NCBI GenBank assembly: GCA_016866785.1
Contig: VGLH01000010.1
Span: 1 to 54,307, forward strand
Length of the DNA stretch: 54,307 nt
Source of the DNA: Candidatus Poribacteria bacterium
Lineage (GTDB): Bacteria > Poribacteria > WGA-4E > GCA-2687025
Direction: 5' to 3'
Made by a program: the position numbers and the translations under genes. The notes below the pieces were generated by a model. It searched no databases, was not told the origin of the DNA, and saw only the letters and a program-made list of their open reading frames with translations. Of the stretch, positions 10,847 to 42,405 are shown in pieces. Positions within the stretch are counted from its first letter, which is position 1; every line of letters begins with the position of its first letter.

Positions 10847-11209
10847 ATGGCACGGATCAAACGGGGCGTCGCTGCCCGTAAGCACAAGAAGAACACGCTG
10901 CGCCACACGAAAGGCTTTCGGGGCGGTCGGAACAATCTGATTCGATCTGCCCGTGAAGGATTGGAGAAGGGCTGGAACTACGCGTACCGCGACCGGAGGA
11001 AGAAGAAGGGCGAGTACCGCCGCCTCTGGATCGCGCGTATCAACGCCGCCGCCCGGATCCATGACATCTCGTACAGCCGACTCATCGACGGACTCAACAA
11101 GGCGGGCGTCGACCTGAATCGCAAGGTGCTCGCCGAAATGGCAATCAGCGACGACGCTGCATTCGCCCAGCTCGTCGAGATCGCCAAGAAGAGCTCGGTA
11201 TCCGGCTGA
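10847..11209 (+). CDS. rplT: Large-subunit ribosomal protein bL20
   Basis: A 120-residue basic protein starting MARIKRGVAARKHKKNTLRH, with the bL20 signatures GFRGGRNNLIRSAREG, YAYRDRRKKKGEYRRLWIAR and INAAARIHDISYSRLIDGL. It binds 23S rRNA early in 50S assembly, and in several bacteria represses the rpmI-rplT mRNA. GGAG lies about 9 nt before the ATG, and it follows rpmI by 24 nt. A perfect 8-bp hairpin (11210-11228) immediately follows the stop. Confidence 0.97.
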   Translation: MARIKRGVAARKHKKNTLRHTKGFRGGRNNLIRSAREGLEKGWNYAYRDRRKKKGEYRRLWIARINAAARIHDISYSRLIDGLNKAGVDLNRKVLAEMAISDDAAFAQLVEIAKKSSVSG

Positions 11210-11228
11210 GTCGATCCGCTGGATCGAC
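11210..11228 (+). other. Perfect hairpin after rplT
   Basis: GTCGATCC-GCT-GGATCGAC begins at the base after the rplT stop. There is no T-run, so it may be a processing or pausing hairpin rather than an intrinsic terminator. Confidence 0.6.
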
Positions 11229-11229
11229 C

Positions 11230-11567
11230 TGCGCGCAAAGGCGATGACCGAAGTGCAGTAAGCGCCTGAGCCATCCCGCTCAGAGAGAGGCAGCCACCGG
11301 CTGGAAGCTGCCTCCGGGATCAGTCGCCGAAATTCCTTCGCGAGCTGCCCGCTTGAATCCCTTGGTAGTAGGGCGGGACGGTTCCCACCGTGACCGGGAT
11401 GACAGAGCGGGCGCCCTGGCGATGGGCGCCAAGAAGGGTGGTACCGCGGAAGCCCTGCTTCGGTGCGTGGGCGAGCTCGGCTCGCCGAAACGCCAGGAGC
11501 CTGACGCTTTCGTCCCTTCCGTGCGTGGTTCTCACGCTGGAGGTGAACGACAGACGTCGGGTTTTTT
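11230..11567 (+). promoter_or_regulatory. T-box riboswitch (predicted tRNA-Phe-responsive) upstream of pheS
   Basis: A classical T-box leader that senses uncharged tRNA. Stem I begins with GCGATGACCGAAGTGCAGTA (matching the GAUGA..GAAGAGUA block). It has a distal hairpin GAGGCAGC/GCTGCCTC with the conserved AGAGAG and GGCTGGAA elements, then an ATCCC/GGGAT helix. The proximal 3' strand is GAAATTC, giving TTC (Phe) at 11333-11335 as the likely specifier. The T-box sequence AGGGTGGTACCGCG is at 11435-11448; its TGGT bulge pairs with an ACCA tRNA end, which fits tRNA-Phe. The conserved TCGTCCCT follows. A terminator helix CCTGACG (11500) with CGTCGGG (11555) ends in six T at 11562-11567, 45 nt before pheS. 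Confidence 0.93.
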
Positions 11568-11611
11568 GTTTGCCCACGCGCCCCCGGGCATGGCACCGAG
11601 GAGACCGTTCG

Positions 11612-12628
11612 ATGCAAGAGCAGATCGACGCGATTCGGGAAGAGGCGCAAGCGCTGCTTGCGCAGGTCAGCTCCCTCCAGGACGTTGAGTCAGCCCGGAT
11701 CAGGCTCCTGGGTAGGAAAGGGAACCTGACCGAACTGCGACGAGCGCTCGCAGGGCTGGCGGACGAGGAACGTCCGACATGGGGAAAAGCCATCAATGCC
11801 CTGAGTCGGGAGATCGTCGAAGCTCTCGACGCAGCCCAGACCAGTATGCAGGAGGCAGAGCGCCCCGTCGCGCTCGAGGACGAAGGCATCGATGTCTCGC
11901 TTCCGGGTAGACAGCCTAACCTAGGCGGACTGCACCCCATCACGCAGACTATCGACCGGATCCGCGAGATATTCTTGGCAATGGGTTTCGAGGAGGTCGA
12001 GGGTCCAGAGGTCGAGACGGAGTACTACAACTTCGACGCGTTGAACACGCCCGCGCACCACCCGGCGCGCGACATGCACGACACCTTCTACATCACGGAC
12101 ACCGTGTTGCTTCGGACGCACACGTCGCCCGTCCAGGTCCGCGCGATGGAACAGCGCCAGCCCCCGATTCGGATCATCGCTCCGGGTCGCGTTTATCGGA
12201 AAGACGCCGATGTATCGCACAGTCCCATGTTCCACCAGGTCGAAGGATTGCTGGTGGACCGGAACATCCGGTTCAGTGATCTGAAGGGCATCCTGGCTGA
12301 GTTTGCCCGCCAGATGTTCGGACCGTCGACGCGCGTGCGATTCCGCCCCAGCTTCTTCCCGTTCACCGAGCCCAGCGCCGAAGTGGACGTCTCGTGCTTC
12401 TTCTGCGGCGGCGAGGGCTGCCGCGTGTGCAAGCGGACCGGATGGATCGAGATCCTCGGCGCGGGATGTGTCGACCCGGAGGTGTTCCGGTGTGTCGGGT
12501 ACGACCCGGATGTCTACACCGGGTTCGCGTTCGGCATGGGCCCGGATCGGATCGCCATGTTGCGGTACGGGATCAACGACATTCGTGTCCTGTTCGAGAA
12601 CGACATGCGGTTCCTGACCCAGTTCTAG
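11612..12628 (+). CDS. pheS: Phenylalanyl-tRNA synthetase alpha subunit
   Basis: A 338-residue catalytic subunit of the alpha2beta2 synthetase that charges tRNA-Phe. An N-terminal coiled coil (about 1-80) precedes the class II core. The core shows motif 2 (PIRIIAPGRVYRKDADVSHS, FHQVEGLLVD), the segment SCFFCGGEGCRVCKRTGWIE and motif 3 (GFAFGMGPDRIAMLRYGIND). The ATG is preceded by GAGGAG at about 7 nt, and the start lies beyond the T-box terminator. Longer in-frame starts fall inside the riboswitch and are rejected. Expression is predicted to rise when tRNA-Phe is uncharged. pheT follows by 35 nt. Confidence 0.97.
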   Translation: MQEQIDAIREEAQALLAQVSSLQDVESARIRLLGRKGNLTELRRALAGLADEERPTWGKAINALSREIVEALDAAQTSMQEAERPVALEDEGIDVSLPGRQPNLGGLHPITQTIDRIREIFLAMGFEEVEGPEVETEYYNFDALNTPAHHPARDMHDTFYITDTVLLRTHTSPVQVRAMEQRQPPIRIIAPGRVYRKDADVSHSPMFHQVEGLLVDRNIRFSDLKGILAEFARQMFGPSTRVRFRPSFFPFTEPSAEVDVSCFFCGGEGCRVCKRTGWIEILGAGCVDPEVFRCVGYDPDVYTGFAFGMGPDRIAMLRYGINDIRVLFENDMRFLTQF

Positions 12629-12663
12629 ACGACCGCTGCGATGGTGCTGACAAGGGGCTGACC

Positions 12664-15063
12664 ATGCGAATAAGCGCCAAGTGGGTGAGAGAGTATGTGG
12701 ACACGGCGCTGTCCCCGGACGATCTGGCGCAGCGGCTGACCATGCTCGGGCTGGAGGCAGAGGAAGTGATGCCTTTGGACCCAGGAATCGACCGCGTCAT
12801 CGTCGCGCGCGTGTCCAGCGTGTCGCCGCATCCCAATGCGGACAAGCTCTCGGTCTGCGTCGTGGAGACCGGCTCCGGTGCGGTGCGCGTCGTCTGTGGC
12901 GCGCCGAACGTTCGACCTGGTATGGTGGCTCCGTTGGCGCTCGACGGGGCCCGACTCCCCAGCGGCATGACGATCCGCGTCACGTCGGTGCGCGGGGTCG
13001 AGTCGCACGGCATGCTGTGTTCGGCTCGCGAGCTCCAGCTCTCCGACGATGCCAGCGGACTGATGGAGCTGCCGGCGGAGGTAGCGGTGGGCACCCCGCT
13101 CCGCGAGGCTCTCGGACTGGATGACACGGCAATCGAGCTGGGAGTCGCGGCGAACCGTCCTGACTGCCTCAGCATAGTCGGGGTGGCGCGGGAGATCGCC
13201 ACGAGCCAGGGTCTGTCGCTGCGCGTGCCGAAACCGATAGTGGCTGAAGGCGAGGAACCGACATCGCAAGCCACGACGGTTGAGGTCCGAGACCCCGAGC
13301 TCTGTCCACGGTACGCCGCCCGGGTGATCCGAGGCGTTCGCATCGCGCCGTCTCCGGCGTGGCTAGTGCGAAGGCTGCACGCCGTGGGCTTGCGTTCCAT
13401 CAACAACGTCGTAGACGTGACGAACTACGTGCTGATGGAACTGGGTCACCCACTGCACGCATTCGACGACGACCGGCTCGCCGAGAACCGAATCGTCGTT
13501 CGACGAGCGATGGCTGACGAGTCGATCCAGACCCTGGACGGCGAAGAACGCAACCTGACCAGCGAAACGCTGGTGATCGCCGACGCCGAGAAGCCGGTCG
13601 CGCTGGCGGGCATCATGGGCGGTCGGCACAGCGAGGTCACGTCCGAAACGCGGAACGTGCTTCTCGAGAGCGCCTACTTCAACCCGATCAGCATCCGACG
13701 AACCGCCAAAGTGCTGGGGCTCAAGACGGAGGCGTCGTTCCGGTTCGAGCGTGGAGCGGACCCGGAGGGTGTCCTGCGCGCGCTCGACCGCGCGGCGGAG
13801 CTCATCCTGCAGGTCGCTGGCGGCGAGGCGTGCCGCGGCGTTGTGGACGTGTACCCGGCGCGCCACGAGGCGAAGCGAATCGAGCTGAAGCCTGAGCGCG
13901 TTAACGCCCTTCTCGGTACGGACATCGCCGGATCCGAGATGGTGCGGATCCTCCGGGGCTTGGGATGCGGCGTCGAAGAAGGCGATCCGCTGGTGGTCGT
14001 CGCGCCCACGTTCCGCCCCGACCTGACGCGCGACATCGACTTGGTGGAAGAGATCGTTCGGGTCTCTGGATTCGCCAGCGTTCCGACGACGCTTCCTGTC
14101 GGCGAATCTCCAGGGTGCGTTCCGGACCCCTACATGCAGCTCCGACGTCGGATCGCCTCCGTGATGGTGGCTTCGGGGTTCCGCGAGGTCTGCAACTATG
14201 GCTTCTACGGGCCCGCGTCCCTCGACCGGATTCGGATCGGTGGCGAGGACCCCCTGCGCGACGAGCTCCGCATCGCCAATCCGCTCAGCGCCGAGATGTC
14301 GGTCATGCGGACGTCGCTGCTCCCCAGCCTGATGGAGAACGTGCGACACAACCGCCGTCGTCAGGTGGAGCACATCGCGTTGTTCGAGGTGTCGCGGGTC
14401 TTCCACGACGGGTCCAGGTCCGAACTGCCGCGTGAGCGCTGGATGCTCGGCGCTGCGCTGTGCGGAGCGCGGCGAAAGCACTGGTCGTCGGACGTGCGCG
14501 AGCCGGACTACTACGATGCCAAGGGAGTCGTGGAGGCGATTCTGGAATCCATCGGCGTCCAGTCGTGGAACCTGGAGCGGTCGGTGCACCCGACGTTTCA
14601 TCCCGGTAGGACCGCCGAGATCAGGATCGGCGATCAGATCCTGGCGCGCTTCGGCGAAGTGCACCCGGACGTGCTGAGCAACTACGAGCTGATCCGACGT
14701 ACACTCCTCATCGAGATGGACGTGGACTTGCTGGCAGCCAACGCCCGAACCGAGCGCTGGATGGAGCCACTGCCGCTGTTCCCGAGCTCGAACCGGGACC
14801 TTGCGGTGGTCGTCGACGCGTCTGTGCCGGCAGAGGCGGTCATGCGAACCATCCGCGATACCGTATCGCCGTCCGTGCTGGCTTCGGTGTCGCTGTTCGA
14901 CGTCTACTCCGGCGACCAGATCGCCGAAGAGGAGAAAAGCCTGGCGTTCTCGCTGGAGTATCGCTCCTCCGACCGCACGCTGACGGATGCCGAGGTGGAT
15001 CGCTTCCAGTCGCAGATCACGCATGTGCTCGAAGAGCAGTTGGGAGCTCGGCTCCGGTCCTGA
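12664..15063 (+). CDS. pheT: Phenylalanyl-tRNA synthetase beta subunit
   Basis: A 799-residue beta subunit of typical length. In order it has an N-terminal segment MRISAKWVREYV, an EMAP/tRNA-binding domain (about 40-150, HPNADKLSVCVVETG, VRGVESHGMLCSARE), the B3/B4 editing domain (LHAVGLRSINNVVDVTNYVL, RFERGADP), the B5 domain and a C-terminal ferredoxin-fold anticodon domain (PLFPSSNRDLAVVVD). The chosen ATG follows an AAGGGG site; the frame is open further upstream but overlaps pheS. Cotranscribed with pheS and so under the same T-box control. Confidence 0.97.
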   Translation: MRISAKWVREYVDTALSPDDLAQRLTMLGLEAEEVMPLDPGIDRVIVARVSSVSPHPNADKLSVCVVETGSGAVRVVCGAPNVRPGMVAPLALDGARLPSGMTIRVTSVRGVESHGMLCSARELQLSDDASGLMELPAEVAVGTPLREALGLDDTAIELGVAANRPDCLSIVGVAREIATSQGLSLRVPKPIVAEGEEPTSQATTVEVRDPELCPRYAARVIRGVRIAPSPAWLVRRLHAVGLRSINNVVDVTNYVLMELGHPLHAFDDDRLAENRIVVRRAMADESIQTLDGEERNLTSETLVIADAEKPVALAGIMGGRHSEVTSETRNVLLESAYFNPISIRRTAKVLGLKTEASFRFERGADPEGVLRALDRAAELILQVAGGEACRGVVDVYPARHEAKRIELKPERVNALLGTDIAGSEMVRILRGLGCGVEEGDPLVVVAPTFRPDLTRDIDLVEEIVRVSGFASVPTTLPVGESPGCVPDPYMQLRRRIASVMVASGFREVCNYGFYGPASLDRIRIGGEDPLRDELRIANPLSAEMSVMRTSLLPSLMENVRHNRRRQVEHIALFEVSRVFHDGSRSELPRERWMLGAALCGARRKHWSSDVREPDYYDAKGVVEAILESIGVQSWNLERSVHPTFHPGRTAEIRIGDQILARFGEVHPDVLSNYELIRRTLLIEMDVDLLAANARTERWMEPLPLFPSSNRDLAVVVDASVPAEAVMRTIRDTVSPSVLASVSLFDVYSGDQIAEEEKSLAFSLEYRSSDRTLTDAEVDRFQSQITHVLEEQLGARLRS

Positions 15064-39703: not shown

Positions 39704-39730
39704 CGCACAGACACCGACAACCACGCTGAT

Positions 39731-39857
39731 CTCATCCAGAGGTGCTGAGGGACGGGCCCTGTGAAGCATCGGCAACCGCTGCACCGTCGTGCAGTAGGGT
39801 GCCAATTCCCGCGAAGTCGGCGACGCTCCCCGAGCGCAGGCGGCTTCGGAAGATGAG
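39731..39857 (+). promoter_or_regulatory. SAM-I riboswitch (S-box) upstream of metK
   Basis: A clear SAM-I aptamer. P1 is CTCATC (39731-39736) with GATGAG (39852-39857). The conserved core reads AGAGGTGCTGAGGGACGGGC, then CCTGTGAAGCATCGGCAACC, then GGTGCCAATTCC and GGAAGATGAG. These match the S-box consensus, including the kink-turn, the pseudoknot segment and the P3 strand. It binds S-adenosylmethionine and should switch off metK-ahcY when SAM is plentiful. Confidence 0.96.
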
Positions 39858-39866
39858 CGCTGACCG

Positions 39867-39919: not shown

Positions 39920-39962
39920 TCGTGAGTCAACCGGCCTAACCGCCGGAGCTGTGGAGACTTCC

Positions 39963-42405
<2,443 letters not shown>

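Follow-up and report, generated by a model that had tools for sequence, protein, structure and literature searches.

Genomic context of the pheST leader

The window, that is, the whole stretch of 54,307 nucleotides analysed here, contains the gene order thrS-infC-rplT-T-box-pheS-pheT, as assigned with Pfam profiles. The genes adjoining the T-box are as follows:

10847-11209, + strand: rplT, the upstream neighbour, located after thrS and infC (PF00453, 1.1e-40)
11612-12628, + strand: pheS, the predicted regulated gene (PF01409, 1.7e-106; TIGR00468 pheS, 358.9 bits)
12643-15063, + strand: pheT, the second gene of the unit, with an approximate start (domains B3_4, tRNA_synthFbeta, B5, and FDX-ACB)

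Elsewhere in the window, a SAM (S-box) riboswitch was found at 39729-39859 (+ strand, 76.7 bits), 5' of metK (39951-41096), and a frame for S-adenosylhomocysteine hydrolase (40786-42405) overlaps on the downstream side.

Identification and anatomy of the T-box

Within the leader of pheS, the full RF00230 model (positions 1-219 of 219) matched at 11235-11459 (+ strand) with 85.7 bits and an E-value of 3.2e-19 in a scan of 551 bases (11150-11700). The E-value was 5.9e-19 when the whole 4.3 Mb genome was searched, and no second RF00230 match was found in that genome even at E<=10; the original prediction had proposed a search for further T-boxes there. The default Rfam scan of the window listed the SAM riboswitch and four tRNAs and no T-box, because 85.7 bits falls under the gathering score of RF00230 (93 bits), which is a curation threshold and not a structural feature. 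The covariance-model check that had been proposed for this element thus gave a significant full-length match, although one below the gathering cut-off. The fold of the leader was better than that of 100 of 100 shuffled sequences (z -3.68). Matches to MIR162 (E 0.68) and P8 (E 2.4) in the same leader were rejected as chance on the basis of their E-values.

Judged by its sequence, the element that separates rplT from pheST is a complete T-box of class I, the transcription-attenuating type. Its parts are the following:

11235-11567, + strand: complete T-box leader of pheST, comprising aptamer and expression platform (RF00230, fold z-score, terminator fold)
11241-11345, + strand: Stem I with the tRNA-contacting motifs GATGA, AGTA, AGAGAG, and apical GGCTG (RF00230 alignment, covariation in 27 aligned sequences)
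11333-11335, + strand: specifier codon TTC (Phe), preceded by GAA at 11329-11331 and one A (sequence, conservation)
11348-11377, + strand: Stem II with the GAA / AGTA S-turn motifs (RF00230 alignment; 85.6% of cells paired where present)
11378-11400, + strand: probable Stem IIA/B pseudoknot, a CGG/CCG hairpin with a TTCCC loop able to pair with a downstream GGGA (RF00230 alignment, sequence reading)
11410-11430, + strand: Stem III, GGCGCCC/GGGCGCC (RF00230 alignment; both-sided changes in 7 of 7 pairs, 95.7% of cells paired)
11435-11452, + strand: antiterminator 5' strand, AGGG-TGGTACC-GCGGAAG, with the TGGT bulge at 11439-11442 complementary to the ACCA of tRNA-Phe (sequence, alignment)
11507-11517, + strand: antiterminator 3' strand, CTTTCGTCCCT, shared with the 5' arm of the terminator (all 11 antiterminator pairs conserved in each of the 27 sequences)
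11494-11567, + strand: intrinsic terminator, with the core CCTGACG (11500-11506) opposite CGTCGGG (11555-11561), followed by T6 at 11562-11567 (minimum free energy -38.5 kcal/mol)

The original prediction had described a T-box layout between rplT and pheS, and all of the parts that it named were recovered in their places: the 14-nt T-box motif AGGGTGGTACCGCG (11435-11448), TCGTCCCT (within 11507-11517), the candidate TTC specifier, the TGGT bulge, and the T6 terminator. The predicted span of 11230-11567 was upheld as an element but not in its start, since the matched leader begins at 11235.

The antiterminator is formed by the pairing of AGGG with CCCT and of GCGGAAG with CTTTCGT, with TGGTACC bulged between them, and its two strands are separated by a 54-base insert that contains a hairpin. 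The terminator has a long, imperfect stem, and its fold was better than that of 200 of 200 shuffled sequences (z -4.85). Since the 3' strand of the antiterminator also forms part of the terminator, the two folds are mutually exclusive. A ribosome-binding site, GAGGAG, is located at approximately 11598-11603, 8 bases 5' of the pheS ATG at 11612 and outside both the antiterminator and the terminator. The presence of a terminator and of a full Stem I distinguishes the leader from class II (translational) T-boxes of Actinobacteria.

The TTC specifier matches the amino acid of the downstream gene pheS. The genome also encodes a tRNA-Phe(GAA) with an ACCA end complementary to the UGGU bulge (RF00005, ARAGORN); the T-arm of this tRNA reads AGTTC, not GGTTC.

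Conservation and covariation

An alignment of 27 pheS T-boxes of the phylum, that of the window included, was used for the covariation test. In these sequences the specifier (T99-T100-C101) and the TGGT bulge were invariant. Overall, 87.7% of cells were paired, compared with 37-52% when the partners were slid by 1-3 columns, a control that leans in favour of the tested structure, which was drawn up from the window's own T-box together with the Rfam model. Changes on both sides were observed in 30 of 49 pairs, the pseudoknot pairs of Stem IIA/B being left out of the pair counts. The first antiterminator pair covaries, as A-U in 16 sequences and G-C in 11. None of 500 shuffles reached any of the five observed structure measures, although the relatedness of the aligned sequences inflates this control.

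Proposed mechanism

Read-through from thrS-infC-rplT upstream, or initiation at a local promoter, would bring transcription into the pheST leader. In Stem I, the UUC specifier is expected to pair with the GAA anticodon of tRNA-Phe, while the apical motifs would grip the tRNA elbow. When tRNA-Phe is uncharged, its free 3' ACCA could pair with the UGGU bulge and stabilise the antiterminator (AGGG/CCCU and GCGGAAG/CUUUCGU), so that the polymerase would continue into pheST. With charged tRNA-Phe, the long terminator hairpin would instead incorporate the 3' strand of the antiterminator, and transcription would end at U6.

A conventional attenuator that encodes a Phe-rich leader peptide and resembles a T-box by accident would likewise account for a leader that ends in a terminator, but it is scarcely credible in view of a covariance-model match over the full model (E 3e-19), a specifier and a bulge that are invariant across relatives, and the strong covariation.

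The reading that we prefer, with a probability of about 0.93, is that pheST of a Poribacteria genome is controlled by a class I T-box riboswitch acting through transcription attenuation and that this element is old and mostly inherited vertically. The evidence for it covers the sequence parts, the conserved structure, the cognate tRNA, the gene context, and the distribution; that this leader binds tRNA, senses its charge, and terminates transcription is presumed by analogy with T-boxes that have been studied. Weighing against this reading are the score under the gathering cut-off, the length and imperfection of the terminator stem, and the existence of relatives with no intact pheS T-box.

Host affiliation

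The position of the host was explored with a PheS tree of 74 rows, a quick tree with SH-aLRT support only, in which support was 99% for a group of the window with five species from its family and 96% for a group with every sampled member of Poribacteria except the long-branch row G011. The sampled Bacillota were placed elsewhere in the tree, and the window PheS was not nested in them. The best PheS matches in the contig search were 53-60% identical and came from mixed phyla. For two members of the phylum (G037 and G068), T-box coordinates and scores equalled those of the genomes behind loci L037 and L044, two MAGs named Candidatus Poribacteria, and the fetched stretches were letter-identical. 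NCBI places Poribacteria among the candidate phyla. In addition, the window encodes a BBP2 outer-membrane porin. On the evidence of the PheS tree and of the letter-identical stretches, the host is a member of the candidate phylum Poribacteria and not a Firmicute, which bears out the prediction of pheST control by a T-box in a diderm genome outside the Firmicutes. The assembly consists of 291 contigs with 3.4% contamination, so the contig might in principle be of Firmicutes origin in a Poribacteria bin; the grouping of the window PheS with its own family and, G011 apart, with the rest of the sampled Poribacteria makes this exceedingly improbable.

Distribution of T-boxes in Poribacteria and other phyla

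T-boxes were detected at E<=0.001 in 79 of 85 Poribacteria genomes (93% of sampled species) and in 55 of the 56 of good quality. Matches above the RF00230 gathering cut-off were found in 61 of 85 relatives; this cut-off hides real T-boxes, the pheST element included. For the phylum of Geomonas, T-boxes were found in 5 of 148 genomes. Among 31 named genomes, they were found only in Bacillota/Clostridiales, two Poribacteria, Geomonas, and one MAG labelled Proteobacteria. A MAG with this label, "Proteobacteria bacterium ZodW_Metabat.265" (G099, the genome of L066; L157), contained two T-boxes.

The gene downstream of the T-box in 71 sampled Poribacteria loci was ilvB (40), pheS (28), or ilvD (2), and in one locus it was cut off by the contig end; NCBIfam confirmed acetolactate synthase, dihydroxy-acid dehydratase, and PheS downstream of T-boxes. 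The specifier of the ilv T-boxes was GTC (Val) nearly throughout, with one ATC. All aligned pheS T-boxes had TTC, and the unaligned row L134 read GAATTTC in the specifier region. These sequence features point to a second conserved T-box regulon in Poribacteria, upstream of ilvB (e.g., L002-L005, L009, L010, L112, and L115) or ilvD (L118 and L133), mostly with a Val specifier and with a terminator. No IlvB homologue was found at E<=1e-30 in the window's genome (G000, 95% complete), which fits the single T-box there; genes of the ILVD_EDD family are present. The lack of an IlvB homologue may mean that branched-chain amino-acid synthesis is incomplete or that a contig is missing.

Variants and apparent decay of the pheS T-box

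The overlapping antiterminator/terminator layout of the window's pheS T-box is common to most relatives. According to the alignment, Stem II and the IIA/B pseudoknot region are missing in two genera of family f8, g19 and g20 (L141-L143, L145, L146, and L148-L150). This family, which includes the two named Poribacteria MAGs, is presumably one of sponge symbionts. In L145 and L150, a terminator-like hairpin without a clear U-run precedes pheS, and the switch may have shifted to translational control or decayed there.

Some relatives from family f1 (G006 and G009) and others have no intact pheS T-box; therefore, it is not essential in Poribacteria. The genomes without a scored pheS T-box are of two kinds. 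G023, G024, G025, G032, and G001 had no rplT beside pheS, whereas G009, G003, G006, and G028 retain the rplT-pheS gap; that of G009 was 56 bases, and that of G003 ended in a terminator. The gap in G006 (L163 2509-2748, reverse strand) has kept CTATCGCTTTTGTCCC and a terminator and has no T-box motif. In G028 (L171 936-1500), GGTGGTACCGCG, CTTTCGTCCCC, the antiterminator, and the terminator are kept, and the 5' half is disrupted. Both gaps look like the remains of decayed T-boxes, and on this reading loss is better supported than repeated gain.

Evolutionary origin

The pheS T-box was located between rplT and pheS in 28 of 28 sampled cases, with 305-736 bases between the matched gene ends. It occupied this gap in seven of ten families (f1, f2, f4, f5, f6, f8, and f10), one of which lies outside the window's class, as does G002. 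This presence in G002 and in the seven families would place the pheS T-box near the base of the phylum. The original prediction had left horizontal spread and deep ancestry side by side; the comparisons favour an element ancestral at the level of the phylum over a recent transfer.

How the element reached the ancestor is a separate question of origin. An ancient transfer into the common ancestor of Poribacteria, followed by vertical inheritance, is compatible with the proposed mechanism and has, in our estimate, an even chance of being correct. It agrees with a phylum-wide presence on only two gene sets, pheS and ilv, and with the rarity of T-boxes in the other sampled diderm phylum, that of Geomonas; yet here it looks the same as inheritance of an even older T-box that few phyla have retained. 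It seems to us rather doubtful that control of pheST and of branched-chain amino-acid synthesis by T-boxes is an ancestral trait of Poribacteria that predates the phylum, has been passed on vertically, and did not come from Firmicutes; if true, a Firmicutes-centred view would underestimate both the age of T-boxes and the extent of their loss.

A recent horizontal transfer from Firmicutes, of the T-box alone or together with pheST, is very unlikely. In its favour, T-boxes are commonest in Firmicutes (PMC2494555), and the pheS T-box is patchy in the window's own family, but the near-universal occurrence of T-boxes in the phylum, including G002, the constant location in the rplT-pheS gap, the position of PheS in the Poribacteria clade outside the sampled Bacillota, and the apparent remnants in G006 and G028 all speak against it.

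Comparison with known systems

The pheST element resembles the class I T-boxes (RF00230) that precede aminoacyl-tRNA synthetase genes in Firmicutes in its Stem I with a specifier loop, Stem II, Stem III, UGGN bulge, antiterminator/terminator switch, and cognate amino-acid gene downstream. It differs from them in its host, a diderm candidate phylum, and in being GC-rich, with a lower covariance-model score and the hairpin-containing insert between the antiterminator strands. Some T-boxes, such as glyQS, lack Stem II and the IIA/B pseudoknot. The pheS T-boxes of family f8 share this lack, on a Phe rather than a Gly T-box, whereas the window's element keeps Stem II.

The leuA T-box of Geobacter/Pelobacter is also found in an outer-membrane-bearing phylum (PMC2494555; PMC2700814). 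However, T-boxes are sporadic there (5/148 genomes) and the known one precedes a biosynthesis gene, whereas T-boxes occur in 79/85 species of Poribacteria with a synthetase operon as one main target. In a 2008 survey, T-boxes were reported in Firmicutes, Actinobacteria, Chloroflexi, Deinococcus, and two Proteobacteria (2/125), and none in Bacteroidetes/Chlorobi or Planctomycetes; the survey left undecided whether T-boxes originated in Firmicutes or were lost elsewhere (PMC2494555). A study from 2025 names T-boxes to illustrate a class confined to a single clade, in this case Bacillota (PMC12452182). Our search of the open-licence literature found no publication joining Poribacteria and the T-box. 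In that literature, the near-universal presence of T-boxes in this phylum appears to be unreported, while the mechanism itself is of an ordinary, known kind. A diderm phylum in which T-boxes are so widespread is a place to test the question of Firmicutes origin versus loss. Poribacteria also provide a natural series, from full T-boxes through those without Stem II and those without a clear U-run to apparent remnants.
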